In this document: piece by piece, positions 25,277-33,797 of the stretch
Position numbering within the stretch: position 1 is the first letter of the stretch
Layout: each line of letters opens with the position of its first letter
Source: a virus
IMG/VR virus record: IMGVR_UViG_3300039210_000167
Span: 1-42,934 of that record
Direction: 5' to 3' (one strand)
Length of the DNA: 42,934 nt
Made by a program: the position numbers and the translations under genes
The notes under the pieces: generated by a model
What the model saw: only the letters and a program-made list of their open reading frames with translations
The model's database searches: none
Told to the model about the DNA's origin: nothing

Positions 25277-25705
25277 TCAACCATGAGTTCGCTTGAACGC
25301 CTTGATCTGCCTACGGGCCTCACTCAGCGTGATCTTCCCAGAACACAGTGCGGTGTGCAGTTTATTCTCTAGAGGGTCAGACACGCTTGACTGTGCCCGA
25401 GGTTCAGGCCACAAGTTATGTGGGTCCTTTGGTGCCCCTCCAAGTTCAAGTGGTACAAAATGATCCTCTTCATAGTGGGACAGTACCTGGTCGCTGTACT
25501 TAAAGGCAATCACCTGTTTACTCTTCAACTTGTTCGTGTAGGCAACTGGTGGCCTTACTGTGCTTGTGTACCCGCTAACGCACACAGTTGTTTTTAGATT
25601 CTGCTGAGTAACAGCAGACGTCTGCACACCCCAGTGTGCGGGTGGCAGGATTACACTTGCAGATACAACTGCAGTGGCAAAGATAGTTCTAAACAAGAAC
25701 CTCAT
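25277..25705 (-). CDS. Secreted HNH-like protein, 142 aa
   Basis: The N-terminus MRFLFRTIFATAVVSASVIL followed by PP and an SA site looks like a signal peptide. The mature part has HYEEDHFVPLELGG then HNLWPEP and LENKLHTALCSG, a pattern found in small HNH-type proteins where DH and N form a metal site. The start is uncertain: ATG 25705 directly follows GAGGAGG, TTG 25696 has better spacing, and an in-frame TTG exists at 25717. It overlaps the polymerase 3' end. An exported nuclease is the best guess; substrate unknown. Confidence 0.68.
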   Translation of the reverse strand: MRFLFRTIFATAVVSASVILPPAHWGVQTSAVTQQNLKTTVCVSGYTSTVRPPVAYTNKLKSKQVIAFKYSDQVLSHYEEDHFVPLELGGAPKDPHNLWPEPRAQSSVSDPLENKLHTALCSGKITLSEARRQIKAFKRTHG

Positions 25706-27134
25706 CCTCCTCGTCAATGATTAGTGGGCGGTACTCATCTGCATTATGTTTCGCATCGCCCCAATTGGGCCCAACGTTCACGTCAGCCACAAAGGGAAGA
25801 TTGTACTCTAACCGCTGACCTTCCTTGAACGGTGACTTAGGTGACTGAGGAAGCGTGACCCAGCCTTGTGGCAACTCGTTCTCCATTGTGTCCTGCACAA
25901 TCGCAGCAGCCTCCTCAATGTAGTCATCTCTGACCTCAAGGTCAACTGAGTCATGCACAGTGAAGAGAAGGCGTGCCCGGTCGGGATCAAGGCGCTCCTG
26001 CAGCAAGACAATTGCGTGGATCATGATCTGCCCAGCGAACCCCTGGATCGGTGTGTTCACTGCCTGGCGCTCAATGTGCCCACGTCCTGACTCAAAGATG
26101 CAGTCGAACCTACGGCGGAACCCAAGCGGGTTCTCAACGTACTGCTTCTTCAGTGAGTCCTTCTTCACCAACTCCATCCAGTCGAACAGCACCTTGTATC
26201 CGACCTTAAACTTGTTGAAGTAATCTTCGATCTCCTTTACGCTCCACGAGCGGCCTGACTGCTCCTTCAGATTGTCCATCTCAGGACCGGTCGCGATTGA
26301 GCGTCCACCACGTCCGTAGATGACACCGAAGTTCATGCACTTGGCAAGATAGCGCTCGTACTTGGTAACCTCCTCCTTTGGCTTGTTCCATAGCATCAGC
26401 GCGACTTCTTGGTGAATGTCACCGCCCTCTCGATAAACATCCAATAGAACAGGATCCTGAGAAAAGAGAGCCGCGACCCGTAGTTCAAGTTGCGAGAAGT
26501 CTGCTTCCATGAACGTCCAGCCTTCCTCCGCAATGAACGCCCTGCGAATGTCGTAACCAACGTGCGAAGCATCAGGGATGTTCTGCAGATTCGGATTGCT
26601 ACAAGAAGTGCGACCTGTTGCAGTACCATGAAGATTGAGGTCACCACGAACACGCCCGTCACTGTCAGTACGCTGGAGGATACCGTTAACGTAGGTTCCT
26701 AGAATCTTTGAGCGTACTCTATACTGTAAGATCTTTTCGATGAGATGTGCAACGTGGGGCTTTTCTTTAGCAACGTCTTTTGCTAGATACTTTAAAACAT
26801 CTTTAGATGTGCTATCACCTGTCTGTTTGTAGGCATAGCGACCTGTGTTCTTAGGTGCAGCAAGGTCAAGTCCTGTTTCAGAGTAAAGTGCTTTCTTGAC
26901 CTGGTGAGATGAGTTCGGGTTGAACTCGCCGTCCTTGAACTGGTCGAGGCCCATGAGGTCGTCAACCATTGCGCCAAGCCGTTCAAGGTCAGCAGCGAGT
27001 TGAATGGTTAGCTCAGACCGTACTCCCTCAAGGTACGGGATGTCAATCTTCGCGCCGTTCATCTCAATGTGAGCGAACGCTATGCTCGCTGGCACGTAGT
27101 AATCCTCGATCAGCGACCAGAGGCGGTTAGGCAC
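25689..27134 (-). CDS. DNA polymerase family A, polymerase domain
   Basis: 481 aa from GTG 27134 with AGGAGG 6 bases upstream. Motif A EADFSQLELR (catalytic Asp212), motif B KCMNFGVIYG (about 265-274) and motif C TVHDSVD (Asp395) are intact; the residue after the motif C Asp is Ser where cellular Pol I has Glu. The protein begins at the end of the normal exonuclease-polymerase junction (NRLWSLIEDYYVPASIAFAHIEMNG). It lacks a nuclease domain and overlaps the upstream exonuclease gene by 8 bases, so the two probably act as one replicative enzyme. Confidence 0.93.
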   Translation of the reverse strand: MPNRLWSLIEDYYVPASIAFAHIEMNGAKIDIPYLEGVRSELTIQLAADLERLGAMVDDLMGLDQFKDGEFNPNSSHQVKKALYSETGLDLAAPKNTGRYAYKQTGDSTSKDVLKYLAKDVAKEKPHVAHLIEKILQYRVRSKILGTYVNGILQRTDSDGRVRGDLNLHGTATGRTSCSNPNLQNIPDASHVGYDIRRAFIAEEGWTFMEADFSQLELRVAALFSQDPVLLDVYREGGDIHQEVALMLWNKPKEEVTKYERYLAKCMNFGVIYGRGGRSIATGPEMDNLKEQSGRSWSVKEIEDYFNKFKVGYKVLFDWMELVKKDSLKKQYVENPLGFRRRFDCIFESGRGHIERQAVNTPIQGFAGQIMIHAIVLLQERLDPDRARLLFTVHDSVDLEVRDDYIEEAAAIVQDTMENELPQGWVTLPQSPKSPFKEGQRLEYNLPFVADVNVGPNWGDAKHNADEYRPLIIDEEDEVLV

Positions 27135-28347
27135 GCGATTCCTCCTCTTGCTTTTTGCGCAGATCCTCAAACAACCGCGCTGTGTAGTAAGCGTCAAGAC
27201 CTTGGTAGACGTACAGCTCCTCTAGCATCTCCTTCTTCCTCTCCTTGGTCGCAGCGGGCAGGAGTGACTTAGGGAGGGGGATATACGGGTACACTTCCTT
27301 CGGATCAATGTCGCGTCCTACCTTGAGTCCGCGCCAACGAGGTTCTTCTCCGTACGTTTCTTCATACCCCTTACGCCACAGCGTGCGTGACTTCTCTGGG
27401 TACTTCTCACAGTGTTCCTTGAGGTACGCCTTCACGTCAGCGGGGTCGGGGTCCTCACGGAAGAACTCCTCCAACCACTCGCCCATAGGCAACCCGTAGT
27501 CAGGTGCGTCATAGTAGAGACGTGCGAGGAGTTTCAGCGAGTGTGACCTGTAGCGATTGAACGGGCGCTCATCTAGTGAGTAGTTAAGCAGCATCGTGTC
27601 CATTGGCTTCTTGAAGGTGAACTTGCCGTATAGGCGCATGAGGTGCTGCACATCGAACTTCAGATTGTGGTAGACTGAGTACCCCTTGTAGGTCTTGAAG
27701 AAGGTGAGAAGCTCCTCTCCGATGTACTTTTGAGGTACGACAATAGCATACCCCTCATTGACTCCAGTAAGTGCGCCCAAGCCGACAGAGAGGGGGTAGG
27801 CATGAATGCCGAATCCAGACGTCTCAATGTCCATGCCGAGAAACGAAGCATCATGCAAATCCCTAAGATCGCGTAGGTCTGCCTTCTTTTCAACAAGGTT
27901 GATCTCCACATCTGGTTGTGGGATAGGAGCGCTGTGCGTCAGCAACTTGTCTATGTCAGACACAACGTCTCTGAAGAAGTCAGCGTCCTTGACAACAGTA
28001 CTAGGTGAGTATGTGGCAACTGTGTACCACTCCATTAGTGGTTCCTGGATCACCATGCCTCGCCCCCTTGCCTTCGTGACAGATACCGTCTTGTCGAGGC
28101 GGTGAGTGGTCGCGGTAGCAATAGGTCCACAGCATAGAATCTTCTCGTGCTTGTATGCAGCTTCAAGGATCCTATCACTCTCCTGCAACCAGCGCTCAGG
28201 CTTGATCTTCTTCAATTCCTTGTCTGCCATCTTCGGCACGACGTTGACGATCTCGTACTCTGTCTTGTAAGCACGGAAGATCGAGTCGATGATCTGCAGG
28301 TGCATCCCTGAAAGGATCGGCGTGTCATGGACGACGAGTACGCTCAC
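27127..28347 (-). CDS. 3'-5' exonuclease subunit with UDG-like N-terminus
   Basis: 406 aa from GTG 28347, in a GTGA overlap with the previous small gene. Residues about 165-395 are a DEDD exonuclease: Exo I GMDIETSG (Asp173, Glu175), Exo II HNLKFD (Asp232), Exo III YQGLD (Tyr381, Asp385). Residues 1-136 (VLVVHDTPILSG, ILCCGPIATAT, YTVATYSPSTVVKDADFF) resemble the degenerate uracil-glycosylase-like domain at the start of SPO1-type phage polymerases. Together with the following gene it forms a split family A polymerase; it would proofread. Confidence 0.85.
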   Translation of the reverse strand: MSVLVVHDTPILSGMHLQIIDSIFRAYKTEYEIVNVVPKMADKELKKIKPERWLQESDRILEAAYKHEKILCCGPIATATTHRLDKTVSVTKARGRGMVIQEPLMEWYTVATYSPSTVVKDADFFRDVVSDIDKLLTHSAPIPQPDVEINLVEKKADLRDLRDLHDASFLGMDIETSGFGIHAYPLSVGLGALTGVNEGYAIVVPQKYIGEELLTFFKTYKGYSVYHNLKFDVQHLMRLYGKFTFKKPMDTMLLNYSLDERPFNRYRSHSLKLLARLYYDAPDYGLPMGEWLEEFFREDPDPADVKAYLKEHCEKYPEKSRTLWRKGYEETYGEEPRWRGLKVGRDIDPKEVYPYIPLPKSLLPAATKERKKEMLEELYVYQGLDAYYTARLFEDLRKKQEEESRA

Positions 28348-28478
28348 TTGAGTAGCCCCTTCGCCCGGCAGATCGTCTGCTTGCCGTTCTTCAAGATCAC
28401 GTACTGCTCTGACCATGCCGGGAACTCACACACCGTCCAGGTCTTGCCACCGATCTTGAACTTATCTCCGATCTTCAC
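28344..28478 (-). CDS. Small basic hypothetical protein, 44 aa
   Basis: GTG start overlapping the DpdA stop, and stop overlapping the exonuclease GTG. It reads as a compact beta protein: MKIGDKFKIGGKTWTVCEFP then YVILKNGKQTICRAKGLLK, like a small SH3-type barrel. The two 4-base overlaps argue it is real and co-translated. Function unknown; it links the modification and polymerase genes. Confidence 0.65.
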   Translation of the reverse strand: MKIGDKFKIGGKTWTVCEFPAWSEQYVILKNGKQTICRAKGLLK

Positions 28479-29305
28479 AGTTTACCCGCTGCTGCCTGAG
28501 CGAACACCCTACAGTTGTGCCCAGCGATCTTCAACTGTTTCTTGTCTAGCACTGCCTTGTGGAAGTCAGTGCGGTGGCGCTTGGGGTAAGGAGGGGGTTC
28601 TTCACTCGGCCACAACTTCATCCCGTGCATTGCATACTGAAACGGCTTGCACGAGTCAGTTGACCTGATCCAGGAATGCTTCTTGGCAATTTCTCCGTAC
28701 ACCCACAGGTTACGTGACCACCCGAGAAGGTGGCAATGCATCCGGATCTCCTTGTCCGCCCACAGGTTCTCTCTGAGATCCTTGACGATGTCTAGGATCT
28801 CAAGTAGACCTCCATCGAGGTCCTGGTAGTCCTTAGAGACACCAATCACAATATCCCGGCGTGAATTCTTACGCTGGGCAATGTAGAGGTGCAGGTCGAT
28901 GAGTTCCTGGATGCATAGCCAGTACTCTTCCTTGTCCTTTCCCTGAGGCACGTACATGAGGCATGGATTGAGTTCGTGCATATCCTCTGCACTGTCACCT
29001 TCGTACCATTCCTCAAGTGCCTGCATTGCTCTCTCAACTGTTGCAGGTCCATCGTCAAGTACGTCCGGAACGACGATCTCCTGTGCGCGTACCCGCATGG
29101 CCTGCCTGAGCAACTTTGCAGCGTTGATCCCTTCCTTGTACTCGTGAGCAGAGTTATCAAGGATCAGGTAGGCACCATGCAGACGCTGCTTCTGATAGTG
29201 CTCACGATACACCTTGTTGCTCATCAGATGAGCAAGCAGAAGATGCAGATCACCTTGTCCGAACTCCTCAAGGTGTGCGTTGGGTACGATCAGTGCAGCC
29301 TTCAT
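28475..29305 (-). CDS. dpdA: DpdA, phage DNA 7-deazaguanine transglycosylase
   Basis: 276 aa from ATG 29305 (ATGA overlap with the upstream gene). It is related to tRNA-guanine transglycosylases: LILDNSAHEYKEG (about 48-60), VVPDVLDDG with Asp81 in the position of the first catalytic Asp, IGVSKDY, MHCHLLGWSRN (about 189-199) and STDSCKPFQYA with Asp217 as probable nucleophile. In other phages DpdA swaps guanine in DNA for a 7-deazaguanine base. The complete synthesis pathway is encoded directly upstream in the same operon. Confidence 0.87.
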   Translation of the reverse strand: MKAALIVPNAHLEEFGQGDLHLLLAHLMSNKVYREHYQKQRLHGAYLILDNSAHEYKEGINAAKLLRQAMRVRAQEIVVPDVLDDGPATVERAMQALEEWYEGDSAEDMHELNPCLMYVPQGKDKEEYWLCIQELIDLHLYIAQRKNSRRDIVIGVSKDYQDLDGGLLEILDIVKDLRENLWADKEIRMHCHLLGWSRNLWVYGEIAKKHSWIRSTDSCKPFQYAMHGMKLWPSEEPPPYPKRHRTDFHKAVLDKKQLKIAGHNCRVFAQAAAGKL

Positions 29306-29658
29306 GCTGGTCCTGATCCTGTCTTCGGAAGTCCACTCCACTGGGGCATGTCTGAGTACTCACCATACAACCCAGTAACATCCTGGTGCACTAGGAACAT
29401 CAGACAGCAAGCGGCGTGAGCAAGGTGATGGTACCCCCACTCTGGATCGTTGACCTCGCCTCGCATATACGCGAAGACGTGGCGGAGGGTCGCGCCGACG
29501 AGGCGTGTTGACCTAATCCCTTTCGCCCAGTTGTTGTCGTCGTACTTAATCGCGCCAGATGTGAGGACCTTGCTGACTTCCTCAAGGAACCAGGGAGACA
29601 GAAGTTCGACACGGATTTTATCGCCATCGAACTTAGTTCCCTCAGGAAGCAGGGGCAT
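29302..29658 (-). CDS. dATP/dGTP diphosphohydrolase-like protein
   Basis: 118 aa. LTSGAIKYDDNNWAKGI, TLRHVFAYMRGEVNDPEWG and HHLAHAACCLMFL match the phage family annotated as dATP/dGTP diphosphohydrolase N-terminal domain (DUF5664), related to MazG-like helices with metal-binding acidic residues and a His pair. It could trim purine dNTP pools while the phage modifies its DNA. It overlaps the gene upstream by 17 bases and dpdA by 4. Confidence 0.75.
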   Translation of the reverse strand: MPLLPEGTKFDGDKIRVELLSPWFLEEVSKVLTSGAIKYDDNNWAKGIRSTRLVGATLRHVFAYMRGEVNDPEWGYHHLAHAACCLMFLVHQDVTGLYGEYSDMPQWSGLPKTGSGPA

Positions 29659-29998
29659 CGGGCACCTCGTCCACGTGGTCGCGCATAGCGATCATGTCTT
29701 CGATCATCTTCTCTAGCATCTCATGGCGAACGGCGTAGTGGTACACTGTCCGGTCTGCAGGGTCAATGATCGAGAACTTGTAGACAGCGATGTCTCCTTC
29801 AGGTGTCCCCTGAATGACCATGCGGGTGAACTCGTGGTAGCATTGCCGCAGTGTCTTCTCAGTCGCAGTGAAGGGGATGTTCGTCCGAGGGTCGGGCAGC
29901 ACAGGTTGTTCCTCACCCTTAGCGAGGATCACTGCCTGCCGTTCAAGTTCCTGGCGCTCCTTCAACTTCTTCTGGAACTCTGTGTCACGACCTGCCAT
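29642..29998 (-). CDS. Uncharacterised protein within the modification operon, 118 aa
   Basis: ATG 29998 is chosen; longer frames run into queC coding sequence. It has a charged N-terminal helix (residues 1-30, EFQKKLKERQELERQ), a middle segment with LPDPRTNIPFTATEKTLRQ, and a C-terminal helix with Met/Glu/Asp (HEMLEKMIEDMIAMRD). No catalytic motif or family is recognised. Tight overlap with queC upstream and the nucleotide hydrolase downstream suggests a role in modified-base synthesis or insertion. Confidence 0.65.
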   Translation of the reverse strand: MAGRDTEFQKKLKERQELERQAVILAKGEEQPVLPDPRTNIPFTATEKTLRQCYHEFTRMVIQGTPEGDIAVYKFSIIDPADRTVYHYAVRHEMLEKMIEDMIAMRDHVDEVPDAPAS

Positions 29999-30761
29999 GA
30001 GACATTTCCCTCCAATTCTTGTACGGTAGCGGGTCAACGAGGTCTGCCTCACTGAACGCATCCAAACGTGCCTGGCAGGTCGAGCAAGTGCCACACGCGG
30101 GACGTTCACCACGGTAACAGGAGTGGGTCAGTTCGTAAGGAGCACCTAGGTCTTTGCCCCTCCTGATGATCTCTGCTTTCGTTCTGTGCTGGTACAGTGC
30201 ATGAAGGCGTACCCGACCGTAGGTGCCCACGTAGATTGCTGCTGCCATCGCTCCAAGGAACTCAGGGGTGCAGTCGGCGTAGGCAAACCCAGCACCATCC
30301 TCAGCGTGCATGCCAGCGTAGATGAGTGCGTCTTCCCAGATATTCTCACCAGGATATGGATCAGGACCAGTTGACCTGCCCTGAATGTTCACGTCCTCAT
30401 CTCTAAGAACAGAATCAGCATACGCTGCTGCCTGACTAAGAAGGTTGCCATTCCTGAATGGAACGTAGGTAGGAGACATGACGCCAGAAGCGAGGTCGTC
30501 GTAGCGCATATCTGCAACTTCCTCGTCTGAGGTCAACGACCCACCAACGAACATCTTTGCCGGCAAGTTGTAGATTGCGTGGTTGACGTTGTAGTAGAAG
30601 CGGGCTATTTCTCTAGCGCACTCGATCTCGACGCTGTGCTTCTGCCCGTAGTTAAACGAGACAGCATGGACGTTCTCAGGTCCGTGACTCTTAATCGCCT
30701 CAGCAAGCGCAGTCGTGCTGTCGAGGCCACCGCTGAAGACGACTACTGCAAGTGTGCTCAT
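29985..30761 (-). CDS. queC: QueC, 7-cyano-7-deazaguanine synthase
   Basis: 258 aa, ATGA overlap with folE. A PP-loop ATPase motif FSGGLDST (about 9-16), SFNYGQKHSVE, PFRNGNLL and a C-terminal Cys cluster CYRGERPACGTCSTC for zinc identify QueC. It converts 7-carboxy-7-deazaguanine to preQ0 with ATP and ammonia. It also has YADCTPEFL, typical of the family. It supplies preQ0 for QueF and DpdA. Confidence 0.95.
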   Translation of the reverse strand: MSTLAVVVFSGGLDSTTALAEAIKSHGPENVHAVSFNYGQKHSVEIECAREIARFYYNVNHAIYNLPAKMFVGGSLTSDEEVADMRYDDLASGVMSPTYVPFRNGNLLSQAAAYADSVLRDEDVNIQGRSTGPDPYPGENIWEDALIYAGMHAEDGAGFAYADCTPEFLGAMAAAIYVGTYGRVRLHALYQHRTKAEIIRRGKDLGAPYELTHSCYRGERPACGTCSTCQARLDAFSEADLVDPLPYKNWREMSHGRS

Positions 30762-31636
30762 CTGTGCACCCTTCCTAGCAGGGATAGAAACTCATTTCTA
30801 GTGTTCAGGTCTGTATAGAAGTCACCCTTGAAAACAGTTGTTGTTGTTGAAGACCCGTGTGCCCTGACTCCTCTGATGTTCATACAGGAGTGAATACCCT
30901 CAACAAGAACAGCAACATTTTCTGTCTGCAGCGTGTCACAGAGAGTATTTGCTATCTGCACTGTGAGGTCCTCCTGAAGAATTGGAAATCTAGCACATGA
31001 GATAGCAACTCTTGCTAATTTAGAAAGTCCTATAGCATCGTGCTTTGGAATGTACCCAAGGTCAATCGTGTACTCTACAGGTAGAAGGTGGTGGGGGCAG
31101 ATTCCATTCGCCTTAACTGCACTTTGAGTTACCATGCCCTCATACTCTGAGGGGAAGGTTGAGTTCTTCCAGGTCTCAAGGTCTTCCTCTAGATCGAGAA
31201 AAAAGTGATCCATGAGGTACTGGGTAAATCTGCGGGGCGTCTCAACAAAGTTCTCATCTTCAAGATCGACTCCTAGAGTTTCTAGAAGGCGCCCAACGGC
31301 TTTAGCGACGAAAGGAAATCTGTCCTCTCTTCTAGCATTGTCACCATGTAGTTTTCCATGGCAAGAAGCACAAAGAAGACTGACGTCTTCAAGAAGTGGG
31401 ACTGTTCTGTTGTAGTTTAGGTGGTGCATCCCAAGCCTTTTGCCATATTTAGCTAGTGCGTCTTCATTGGAGACACAACACTCCTCACACTTGTTCTCTG
31501 CTCTTTCCTGCAAGTCATAAAGAAGTATAGCGTGAGGAGACTTTAGCCGATCCCTTTTAGGGGCTGCATCCCACCTTGCCCGTGCTGCTTTCACACGAAC
31601 ATCATGGTTCTTATCTTGTATTGGTTCACTGCCCAT
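30758..31636 (-). CDS. folE: GTP cyclohydrolase I (FolE) with N-terminal HNH-like domain
   Basis: 292 aa, TAATG overlap with queE. Residues about 108-292 are FolE: FVAKAVGRLLETLG, ETPRR, zinc ligands in GICPHHLLP and HSCMNIRGV, GLSKLARV. It opens the GTP ring to dihydroneopterin triphosphate. Residues about 35-105 have CEECC, GMHHLNYN and LLCASCHGKLHG, a zinc-bound HNH nuclease-like domain not normally part of FolE. The gene is AT-richer than its neighbours (42-52% GC in sampled lines against about 57% in queE), suggesting transfer as a unit. Confidence 0.9.
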   Translation of the reverse strand: MGSEPIQDKNHDVRVKAARARWDAAPKRDRLKSPHAILLYDLQERAENKCEECCVSNEDALAKYGKRLGMHHLNYNRTVPLLEDVSLLCASCHGKLHGDNARREDRFPFVAKAVGRLLETLGVDLEDENFVETPRRFTQYLMDHFFLDLEEDLETWKNSTFPSEYEGMVTQSAVKANGICPHHLLPVEYTIDLGYIPKHDAIGLSKLARVAISCARFPILQEDLTVQIANTLCDTLQTENVAVLVEGIHSCMNIRGVRAHGSSTTTTVFKGDFYTDLNTRNEFLSLLGRVHR

Positions 31637-32433
31637 TAGCGTCCCCTCTCATTTCCCCAAATTAGAGTATGCTGCTGTGGAAAGATGCGACAGTCAGCGA
31701 ACTCCTGCCTCAGCAACACTGCCTCTGTCCAGTCAGCGAAGTTGTCGAGAACAACGTCCCGAGTCAGCACCACAGTCGAGTCATCTACGACTGGGTTTGG
31801 ATTGCCGACAGTGGGGAGAGAGGGATCGTCGTTGCCGATACTCACAAAGAACTCAAGGTAAGGCCATGTCTGGTGAACCCGTGCTGCGAACTCAAGGTCT
31901 GCATACGTGAACACAGGCACCTTAAGGTACGGCGGGTGCACTACAGAACTTACTGGGTTGTCTTTGTGCAGTTCAGTTAGGATCTTGTCGAAGTTGTCGA
32001 AGTCCCAGTCCATCTTTGAGGAAGGCGGCTTCGGTGAGAAGCAGAGGTCGTCTACCTTGCCAAACCACTGACGATAGACACTACCCTGAGTCTCAAGCAT
32101 GACCTTCTTCTTCTGGGAGTGCAACAGATCAATGAGACCGTCGAGGTCCCGCAGTGCAGGGTTACCTCCCGACAGCACAATCCACACAGGAGTGGCACTA
32201 GCGTCACCGTCACGATCAAGGCGGCGTAGCGCACCTACGATCTCCCAGTCAGTCATCTTTGGCAACTTCGCCACGAGGTCAGGCAGGACAGCGTGAGGTG
32301 TGTCACACCAGTCACAGCGGAAGTCACACCCACCGAACCTGACGAAGTGGCAGGGCATGCCGACGTTGCGACCTTCCCCTTGAATCGTCGGCCCAAAGAT
32401 CTCAGCAACGCGGTGCTTCTTGTCGTGAGTCAT
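31636..32433 (-). CDS. queE: QueE, 7-carboxy-7-deazaguanine synthase
   Basis: 265 aa from ATG 32433 (ATGA overlap with queD). The radical-SAM motif is CDFRCDWCD (CX3CX2C), after FGPTIQGEG and RFGG; VWIVLSGGNPAL and MLETQGSVYRQW are further family signatures. It rearranges 6-carboxytetrahydropterin into 7-carboxy-7-deazaguanine. It stands between QueD and FolE in the operon. Confidence 0.95.
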   Translation of the reverse strand: MTHDKKHRVAEIFGPTIQGEGRNVGMPCHFVRFGGCDFRCDWCDTPHAVLPDLVAKLPKMTDWEIVGALRRLDRDGDASATPVWIVLSGGNPALRDLDGLIDLLHSQKKKVMLETQGSVYRQWFGKVDDLCFSPKPPSSKMDWDFDNFDKILTELHKDNPVSSVVHPPYLKVPVFTYADLEFAARVHQTWPYLEFFVSIGNDDPSLPTVGNPNPVVDDSTVVLTRDVVLDNFADWTEAVLLRQEFADCRIFPQQHTLIWGNERGR

Positions 32434-32891
32434 CTTCGCACGTACCTTGCTGAGGAGGTTGGCGACTCCCACACGTCGAGCATGACGGCGTACAGGTCGT
32501 CCTCGTTCTCATACCCAATGTCCAATCCGTGGAACCTAAGCAACTCATCGAACAGGCAGTCAGCCCAGAAGATTGCGATTGCCTCTGCAGTGGGAATGAA
32601 CGGTACCTGGATGAAGCCAAGTTTGTATAGGTCACCTTGACCATCTGCAAACCCGAACACGTCCTCTGCTATCGGGTCCTGGTCCCAAAGGATTGTCCGG
32701 TGGTCCCACTCGTTCAGTGCATTCTTCACTACACCAAAGTCCATTACAAATCCATCCCTAAGGACAGCGGACTTCAGCATAACGTCGAAGCGGTACGTGT
32801 GCCCATGCAGACGAGCACACTTCCCAGCACCACCTTCGTGGTTCGGGATCCGGTGACCCATTGCGATAGTGTGGGAGAGGGAGATCTCCAT
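32430..32891 (-). CDS. queD: QueD, 6-carboxytetrahydropterin synthase
   Basis: 153 aa, TAATG overlap with queF. HTIAMGHRIPNHEGG, CARLHGHTYRF (catalytic Cys and zinc His), GFVMDFGVVK, WDHRTIL and FIPTAEAIA are all present as in QueD/PTPS proteins. It turns dihydroneopterin triphosphate into 6-carboxytetrahydropterin for QueE. Confidence 0.93.
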   Translation of the reverse strand: MEISLSHTIAMGHRIPNHEGGAGKCARLHGHTYRFDVMLKSAVLRDGFVMDFGVVKNALNEWDHRTILWDQDPIAEDVFGFADGQGDLYKLGFIQVPFIPTAEAIAIFWADCLFDELLRFHGLDIGYENEDDLYAVMLDVWESPTSSARYVRR

Positions 32892-33277
32892 TACGCTGTC
32901 GCCTCGATCTCAATACCGCCACGCCGCTTCTGCAGCAACGTGACCGCCACCTGTGCCTCGTGAAAGATCACCCCAGGGTCGTGCATTGAGATGGCCTCAA
33001 AGATTGCTGTCTTGATCTGAACTGCAAGTGCCTCACAGAAGGCACCCTCATTGCGGAACTTGCTGAGGTAGATCTTGAGCGACTTTGATTCGATGCAGGC
33101 GGCGGGTTCTTCGATAGCAATCTCGACCTCGTACAGATCAGGTTGACCTGTCATAGGACACACTGCGGTGAACTCGTCTGAGTGCAGAATCAGACTACGC
33201 AGGCCTGGATTGTCAAATGTCTCCAGGCCCACGTAGGTGTCGCTCCCGGCGTGTCCGAGTGCGCTGAATTGACTCAT
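32891..33277 (-). CDS. queF: QueF, NADPH-dependent preQ0 reductase
   Basis: 128 aa, short single-domain type. AVCPMTGQPDLYEVEI has the catalytic Cys and, seven residues later, the Asp; ESKSLKIYLSKFRNEG is the QueF substrate motif; ISMHDPGVIFHEA follows. It reduces the nitrile of preQ0 to the amine of preQ1. No glutamine amidotransferase domain is attached, so archaeosine-type (Gat-QueF) chemistry is not expected. Its presence predicts preQ1 as the base placed in DNA. Confidence 0.92.
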   Translation of the reverse strand: MSQFSALGHAGSDTYVGLETFDNPGLRSLILHSDEFTAVCPMTGQPDLYEVEIAIEEPAACIESKSLKIYLSKFRNEGAFCEALAVQIKTAIFEAISMHDPGVIFHEAQVAVTLLQKRRGGIEIEATA

Positions 33278-33278
33278 G

Positions 33279-33797
33279 CTACTTGAACGCCTTCTTGCCG
33301 CCGGCCTTCGCAGGTCCTGACTTCTTCGGTCCGCCACCTGACTTCTTCGGCGAGGAGCCACCACTGCCGTTCAGCGACCAGATGCCCTCGACCTGGTTCT
33401 GCTCGCGCCCCTCGTACTTGCGCTTCGACAGCTGAACCTTGACGGGCAGGCCGACCATCTCAGGATTGGTGACGATGAGATCGCCGTTGTCGCCTTCCTC
33501 TGCGTCGATGTCCAGGTTCTCGACGTACAGGTCCAGATTCTCAAGGTACTGCTTGGTGATGCCGAGCGCCTTCGGTGATGTTGACATAACCATCCAGACC
33601 TTACGCCCCTCCACGTCACCAGCGTCTTCCTTCGTCTCCAGTGCTTCCTGGATGTCGATCTCGACGTTGATATAGGGGAACTTGTCCTCGACGTCCACGT
33701 TCCGCAGCGTCGTCTTCGTAATGACTCCACTGTACTCACCAGTGGGCAGGACCTCAAAGTCCTGAACGTCGCTGAAGTCAACTGTAATCCGTGGCAC
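33279..33797 (-). CDS. Probable single-stranded DNA-binding protein (DUF669-like)
   Basis: 172 aa from GTG 33797 with GAGGAGG 6 bases upstream. PRITVDFSDVQDFEVLPTGEYSG, then a beta-rich domain and an acidic stretch (about 100-112), resemble phage DUF669-type proteins. The C-terminus is a flexible Gly/Ser/Lys/Pro tail. It lies directly downstream of the Sak4-like recombinase gene, the usual partner in phage annealing and recombination. Confidence 0.72.
   Translation of the reverse strand: MPRITVDFSDVQDFEVLPTGEYSGVITKTTLRNVDVEDKFPYINVEIDIQEALETKEDAGDVEGRKVWMVMSTSPKALGITKQYLENLDLYVENLDIDAEEGDNGDLIVTNPEMVGLPVKVQLSKRKYEGREQNQVEGIWSLNGSGGSSPKKSGGGPKKSGPAKAGGKKAFK

Follow-up and report, generated by a model that had tools for sequence, protein, structure and literature searches.

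The role accepted for 7-deazaguanine bases in viral DNA is the evasion of restriction, and both QueF-bearing viruses that were measured by mass spectrometry, Streptococcus phage Dp-1 and the halovirus HVTV-1, carry 7-aminomethyl-7-deazaguanine (preQ1) in their DNA as dPreQ1, at ca. 1.7% and ca. 30% of G, respectively (PMC6884629). The window analysed here, an entire IMG/VR virus record of 42,934 bases from an uncultured soil-type phage, harbors on its minus strand what we regard with good confidence as an operon for 7-deazaguanine DNA hypermodification with preQ1 as the likely product. In the proposed pathway FolE, QueD, QueE and QueC would convert GTP to preQ0, QueF would reduce preQ0 to preQ1, and DpdA, with a tRNA-guanine transglycosylase (TGT) fold acting on DNA, would exchange guanine bases of the phage DNA for preQ1.

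Similar to the window, Dp-1 possesses the same six-enzyme set including a unimodular QueF, encoded in a QueF-QueC-QueD-QueE-FolE-QueT-DpdA cluster (PMC6884629). It differs in gene order, in the presence of QueT, in a QueF that keeps His96, and in a DpdA of another subfamily, which scores only 4 bits with the family profile of the window DpdA. HVTV-1 shares a QueF-type reductase and the four preQ0 genes with the window; unlike the window it is an archaeal virus, any transglycosylase it has is of another type (gp69, 4.9 bits), and its QueF, which retains His96, shares only 25% identity with that of the window. The DpdA subfamily of the window is also represented by CPT_0056 of Campylobacter phage CP220 and by Cellulophaga phage phiST, but neither phage has QueF and neither has the SKDY loop discussed below; DNA of the CP220 group is reported to be highly modified with dADG (PMC6884629). 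Bacillus phages BSTP5, BSTP8, BSTP10, BSTP12 and BSP7 and Weizmannia phage Youna2 carry, like the window, a DpdA-FolE-QueE/D/C cluster beside DNA polymerase A, with the DpdA annotated as 'hypothetical' or 'NadR', whereas they lack QueF and have IPK instead of SKDY. Finally, the full preQ1 gene set is found in Mycobacterium phages Funsized, Rinkes and Knocker and in Arthrobacter phage Mufasa8, and QueF of Funsized and Mufasa8 resembles that of the window in having Cys at the His96 position; their DpdA proteins are of a different subfamily (those of Funsized and Mufasa8 are missed by the family profile) and are encoded near a ParB-like nuclease gene. What is new in the window is the combination of QueF with a CP220/phiST-type transglycosylase, the spread of this combination in uncultured phages, and a QueF-linked SKDY loop.

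Operon layout and conservation

The genes run from right to left in the window in the order QueF, QueD, QueE, FolE, QueC, orfX, a PF18909 gene and DpdA, and overlap at all seven junctions (1, 4, 1, 4, 14, 17 and 4 nt from QueF to DpdA). A first-pass annotation of this DNA had listed six genes at 28475-33277; their identity, order and overlaps stand, while orfX and the PF18909 gene between QueC and DpdA had been missed. QueF (32891-33277) is a single T-fold domain of 128 amino acids which matches PF14489 with 34.6 bits against a cut-off of 27.3 (E 2e-8). QueD (32430-32891, 153 amino acids) has a CxxxHxH zinc motif and matches PF01242 (PTPS/QueD, E 1.4e-21) and phrog_2389. The radical SAM protein QueE (31636-32433, 265 amino acids, CX3CX2C) scores 226 bits with TIGR03365; its start was taken as the ATG at 32433, with an in-frame GTG at 32472. 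FolE (30758-31636, 292 amino acids) matches PF01227 over residues 111-287 (E 1e-46), and QueC (29985-30761, 258 amino acids), which has the SGGLDS loop and C-terminal cysteines, matches PF06508 (E 3e-49). The five synthesis enzymes are all recognised by Pfam, PHROGs or NCBIfam. QueE lies above its NCBIfam equivalog cut-off (206 bits) and QueF, QueD, FolE and QueC lie below theirs, so these four are named from their Pfam gathering scores together with active-site residues and synteny. All key residues of the enzymes are present, with the exception of QueF His96, which is a Cys.

Of the two genes that had been missed, orfX (29642-29998, 118 amino acids) is kept at the same position in the nearest relatives, with about eight distinct relatives giving family matches, and yields a poor AlphaFold model (pTM 0.44). 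The other (29302-29658, 118 amino acids) encodes a dATP/dGTP diphosphohydrolase N-terminal domain (PF18909, E 6e-27). A small nucleotide-type domain, either PF18909, DUF3310 or DUF6378, lies directly upstream of DpdA in the window and in several relatives, among them contigs L012 (8973-9224) and L028 (9697-10032); a nucleotide-pool role tied to base exchange is possible.

The order Cas4-Sak4-SSB-QueF-QueD-QueE-FolE-QueC-DpdA-PolA recurs in contigs at 30-60% protein identity, and both in the window and in dozens of contigs of uncultured phages DpdA is flanked by the synthesis genes on one side and DNA polymerase A on the other. The gene order is not a product of chance, as it is found again in dozens of further contigs. 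Many other members of the DpdA subfamily lack QueF and keep the four preQ0 genes. On a maximum-likelihood DpdA tree the presence of QueF requires 3 changes, as compared to 15 in shuffles, none of which (0 of 500) needed so few.

Two side observations concern these relatives. A conserved protein of ca. 250 amino acids, which has a GCxxCC motif and matches no Pfam family, adjoins DpdA in many QueF-positive contigs (L012, 9151-9906; L013, 9192-10004; L017, 8813-9613; L151, 13842-14528; and others) and was found neither in the window nor in those QueF-negative DpdA loci that were checked; it could be a tailoring enzyme. Further, an SKDY-type DpdA with QueF nearby is found in a contig binned to a methanogen (L172, Methanothrix metagenome-assembled genome contig JAUCQD010000187.1), which would be a phage assigned to the wrong bin or else an archaeal virus carrying the QueF-DpdA module.

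DpdA and its QueF-linked loop

DpdA (28475-29305, minus strand, 276 amino acids) has no Pfam or NCBIfam match and no single-sequence match in the PDB, and its name therefore needed separate proof. Relatives were gathered from named phages first; viral contigs then yielded 157 stretches that encode one, of which the best 80 were kept. Searches of viral contigs with single QueF or DpdA proteins found nothing, and alignment-based searches succeeded. With an alignment of 50 sequences as input, AlphaFold gave a DpdA model with a pLDDT of 96.3 and a pTM of 0.93. A Foldseek comparison of this model to the PDB returned 56 matches at E<=0.001, of which the top 50 listed are all TGT (best E 1.5e-5), and the best matches among the viral models of BFVD include known or putative transglycosylases of phages (the queuine transferase of Mufasa8, phiST and DpdA2 of nt-1). 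The best PDB match of the family profile is a DNA-guanine transglycosylase (7ui4), though weak (E 0.0029). Residues D50, N51, E55, D81, L194, G195 and D217 are invariant in the 50 sequences, and by strand order D50, D81 and D217 would correspond to the catalytic Asp102, Asp156 and Asp280 of TGT; an hhalign comparison of the DpdA family to E. coli TGT alone was unsuccessful. The Pfam TGT model PF01702 is of no use for phage DpdA proteins, since it detected none of seven known deazaguanine viruses.

The family profile recognises CPT_0056 of CP220 (91 bits, E 2e-15), phiST (129 bits, E 7e-39), Bacillus phage BSTP12, Weizmannia phage Youna2 and Chryseobacterium phage MA9V-3. It barely recognises or misses DpdA2 of nt-1 (14 bits) and, as given above, the proteins of Dp-1, HVTV-1, Funsized and Mufasa8. 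The window DpdA is of the CP220/phiST subfamily and not of the 9g, Dp-1 or nt-1 types.

The enzymes might instead serve queuosine in host tRNA, as was proposed for 48 phages that have pathway genes and no DpdA and may boost host queuosine (PMC6884629). In the window, DpdA is present among replication genes, is nearest to a DNA-guanine transglycosylase and, with 276 as compared to 375 amino acids in E. coli TGT, is devoid of the C-terminal tRNA/zinc region of TGT. We reject a function in tRNA as highly improbable, and DNA is the predicted substrate.

Strand beta5 of the window DpdA is directly followed by the sequence VIGVSKDY (residues 153-160), in which SKDY occupies residues 157-160 (28826-28837). 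The 7ui4 alignment places this segment at GGMVP, the counterpart of the GGLAVGE loop of TGT. In that enzyme the peptide between Leu231 and Ala232 flips to take preQ1, with a response of Glu235, and the residue at position 233 determines how much room there is for the side chain (PMC3660597). SKDY is present in 28 of 28 QueF-positive contigs and in 0 of 24 QueF-negative ones; the latter comprise complete phages and contigs no shorter than 30 kb, and the absence of QueF was checked over their whole records. The few weak QueF matches in these QueF-negative records most likely represent FolE: they fall in frames of at least ca. 200 amino acids, and two coincide with annotated FolE genes. The QueF-negative phage phiST likewise lacks SKDY, and CP220 has SGDY, a partial likeness. 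Two losses of QueF nested within the QueF-positive clade (L047, with IPKAL, and L041, with AKNH) are both accompanied by loss of SKDY. Loci that have SKDY and no QueF are fragments ending before the QueF position.

Since the SKDY loop covaries with QueF, the simplest reading suggests that DpdA is tuned to preQ1 and that QueF makes preQ1 before insertion, so that preQ1 would enter the DNA as a free base. The last two steps could also be reversed, with DpdA inserting preQ0 and QueF reducing dPreQ0 within the DNA. Whether reduction takes place before or after insertion was left open earlier (PMC6884629), and archaeal QueF-Like acts on preQ0 that is already in tRNA (PMC5485725); a DpdA loop that changes along with gain and loss of QueF is, however, unexpected if DpdA always inserts preQ0, and we consider the reversed order unlikely.

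QueF and the predicted base

Cys40, Asp47, Glu63 and Glu82 of the window QueF are the counterparts of B. subtilis Cys55, Asp62, Glu78 and Glu97, and these positions are invariant in 108 of 108 aligned QueF rows. Together with the NADPH-binding motif E(S/L)K(S/A)hK(L/Y)(Y/F/W) they define the QueF family (PMC5372742). The window has ESKSLKIY at this motif, to which Glu63 belongs, with a conservative Ile at position 7 that also occurs in 7 of 80 unique phage rows. The QueF profile matches unimodular QueF (4f8b) with an E-value of 5.2e-38 and QueF-Like (5jyx) with 1.6e-7, and by this comparison the protein is a bacterial-type QueF rather than a QueF-Like archaeosine synthase.

The first-pass annotation had argued from the absence of a Gat domain to preQ1. 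The product is favoured here too, but absence of this domain is insufficient against archaeosine, since it is difficult to distinguish QueF from QueF-Like by sequence (PMC6884629). A QueF-type protein making archaeosine (dG+) in the way of QueF-Like, or dPreQ1 serving as an intermediate to methyl- or formyl-preQ1, would also agree with the traces of dG+ in HVTV-1 (PMC6884629), and orfX and other genes without an assigned function could tailor the base. We judge this improbable, somewhat more so than the reversed step order, in view of the retained NADPH-binding motif, the profile values and the DNA of Dp-1, which has a related QueF, contains dPreQ1 and has no dG+. The preQ1 operon proposed at first pass is favoured by the QueF profile, the conserved residues, dPreQ1 in both measured QueF viruses and the QueF-linked DpdA loop. 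The first-pass annotation described this form as reported in few viruses; dPreQ1 was measured in the DNA of only two in PMC6884629.

Several points weigh against a preQ1 operon that protects the phage genome. The His96 position of QueF is Cys81 in the window, and Cys is found at this position in 61 of 108 aligned phage rows, whereas the viruses with measured dPreQ1 have His. QueF scores 67.2 bits as compared to the TIGR03139 equivalog cut-off of 86.9, which is a naming threshold and not a functional feature; the Pfam gathering score is exceeded. The correspondence to TGT residues was derived by the order of strands and by aligning to 7ui4 rather than from coordinates. The link of SKDY to QueF represents about three independent changes and not 52 independent cases, and a Fisher value of 2e-15 overstates it because the contigs are related. 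Finally, the genome avoids palindromes, with an observed/expected ratio of 0.70 for 6-bp palindromes and 58 AGCT sites where 134 are expected. As decisive evidence against protection this was dropped, since the dPreQ1-bearing HVTV-1 avoids 6-bp palindromes more strongly (0.43); protection from host restriction would be the predicted outcome of the modification.

As a separate observation, 20 of 66 QueF-positive and 1 of 45 QueF-negative contigs lack the tetranucleotide AGCT or are strongly depleted in it, across a GC content of 40-62%; depleted examples are L103, L119, L130, L135-L138, L141, L142, L166, L037 and the window. This depletion looked linked to QueF, but control capsid relatives without a QueF match are also moderately depleted, and no link is claimed.

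Genome setting and implications

Head and tail genes occupy the plus strand in the left half of the window, and replication genes the minus strand in the right half. No near match was found among 50,697 phage records. A sibling contig with 99.8% identity over 20 kb bridges the two ends of the window via ca. 4.9 kb that are absent from it, and the record therefore falls slightly short of completeness. Since the major capsid protein is 52% identical to that of Arthrobacter phages, for example Eileen, the host is likely an actinobacterium. The window contains no tRNA genes and no Rfam elements, hence no preQ1 riboswitch of a described class. An open reading frame for a LAGLIDADG-type homing endonuclease (PF14528, 37555-37980) is located amid the replication genes.

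The gene run extends beyond the operon, upstream with genes for an SSB-like protein, Sak4 and a Cas4-like exonuclease and downstream with DNA polymerase A. The SSB-like gene (DUF669, 33279-33797, minus strand; phrog_378, E 3e-5) lies directly upstream of QueF. DNA polymerase A (25689-28416, minus strand) is split into a 3'-5' exonuclease cistron (27127-28416; PF01612, phrog_17) and a polymerase cistron (25689-27134; PF00476, E 1e-82), which overlap by 8 nt, the latter with a GTG start after a strong ribosome-binding site (gaggagg); in nearly all relatives it is one open frame. The N-terminal HNH-like zinc domain of FolE (residues 1-108, 31313-31636) gave no usable match in the PDB, and the fusion was seen elsewhere in only one phage (L058/L059 and their records; L059, 8642-8941), with which the window shares the Cys/His set. 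With a GC content of 46% and a third-position value (GC3) of 0.42, as compared to a GC3 of 0.59-0.69 in operon neighbours, FolE looks to have been swapped in from another source.

The split polymerase, the apparently foreign FolE and the Cys in place of His96 of QueF would fit an operon that is decaying or inactive. Against this, all frames are intact with overlaps, the polymerase cistron is preceded by a ribosome-binding site of its own, and key residues are kept at 40-60% identity between relatives, which implies selection. We reject decay as the least probable of the explanations considered, and the enzymes of the preQ1 operon are predicted to be active.

Cui et al. reportedly named in 2023 (Nucleic Acids Research) a DpdA3 subfamily that is said to be able to replace all guanines, and the CP220/phiST-type transglycosylases probably belong to DpdA3. 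For this subfamily we tentatively propose, at slightly less than even confidence, that SKDY is a substrate code for preQ1, that QueF precedes insertion and DpdA takes free preQ1, and that switches between preQ0- and preQ1-type DNA occur by joint gain or loss of QueF and the loop; should the full-replacement ability hold, such phages may have cationic preQ1 in place of most or all guanines. The QueF-linked loop makes the order of preQ0 reduction directly testable, and SKDY would serve as a sequence rule by which the base can be predicted in metagenomic data. A widespread lineage of uncultured phages is predicted to carry dPreQ1 by way of a transglycosylase subfamily whose members are labelled hypothetical in standard annotation.

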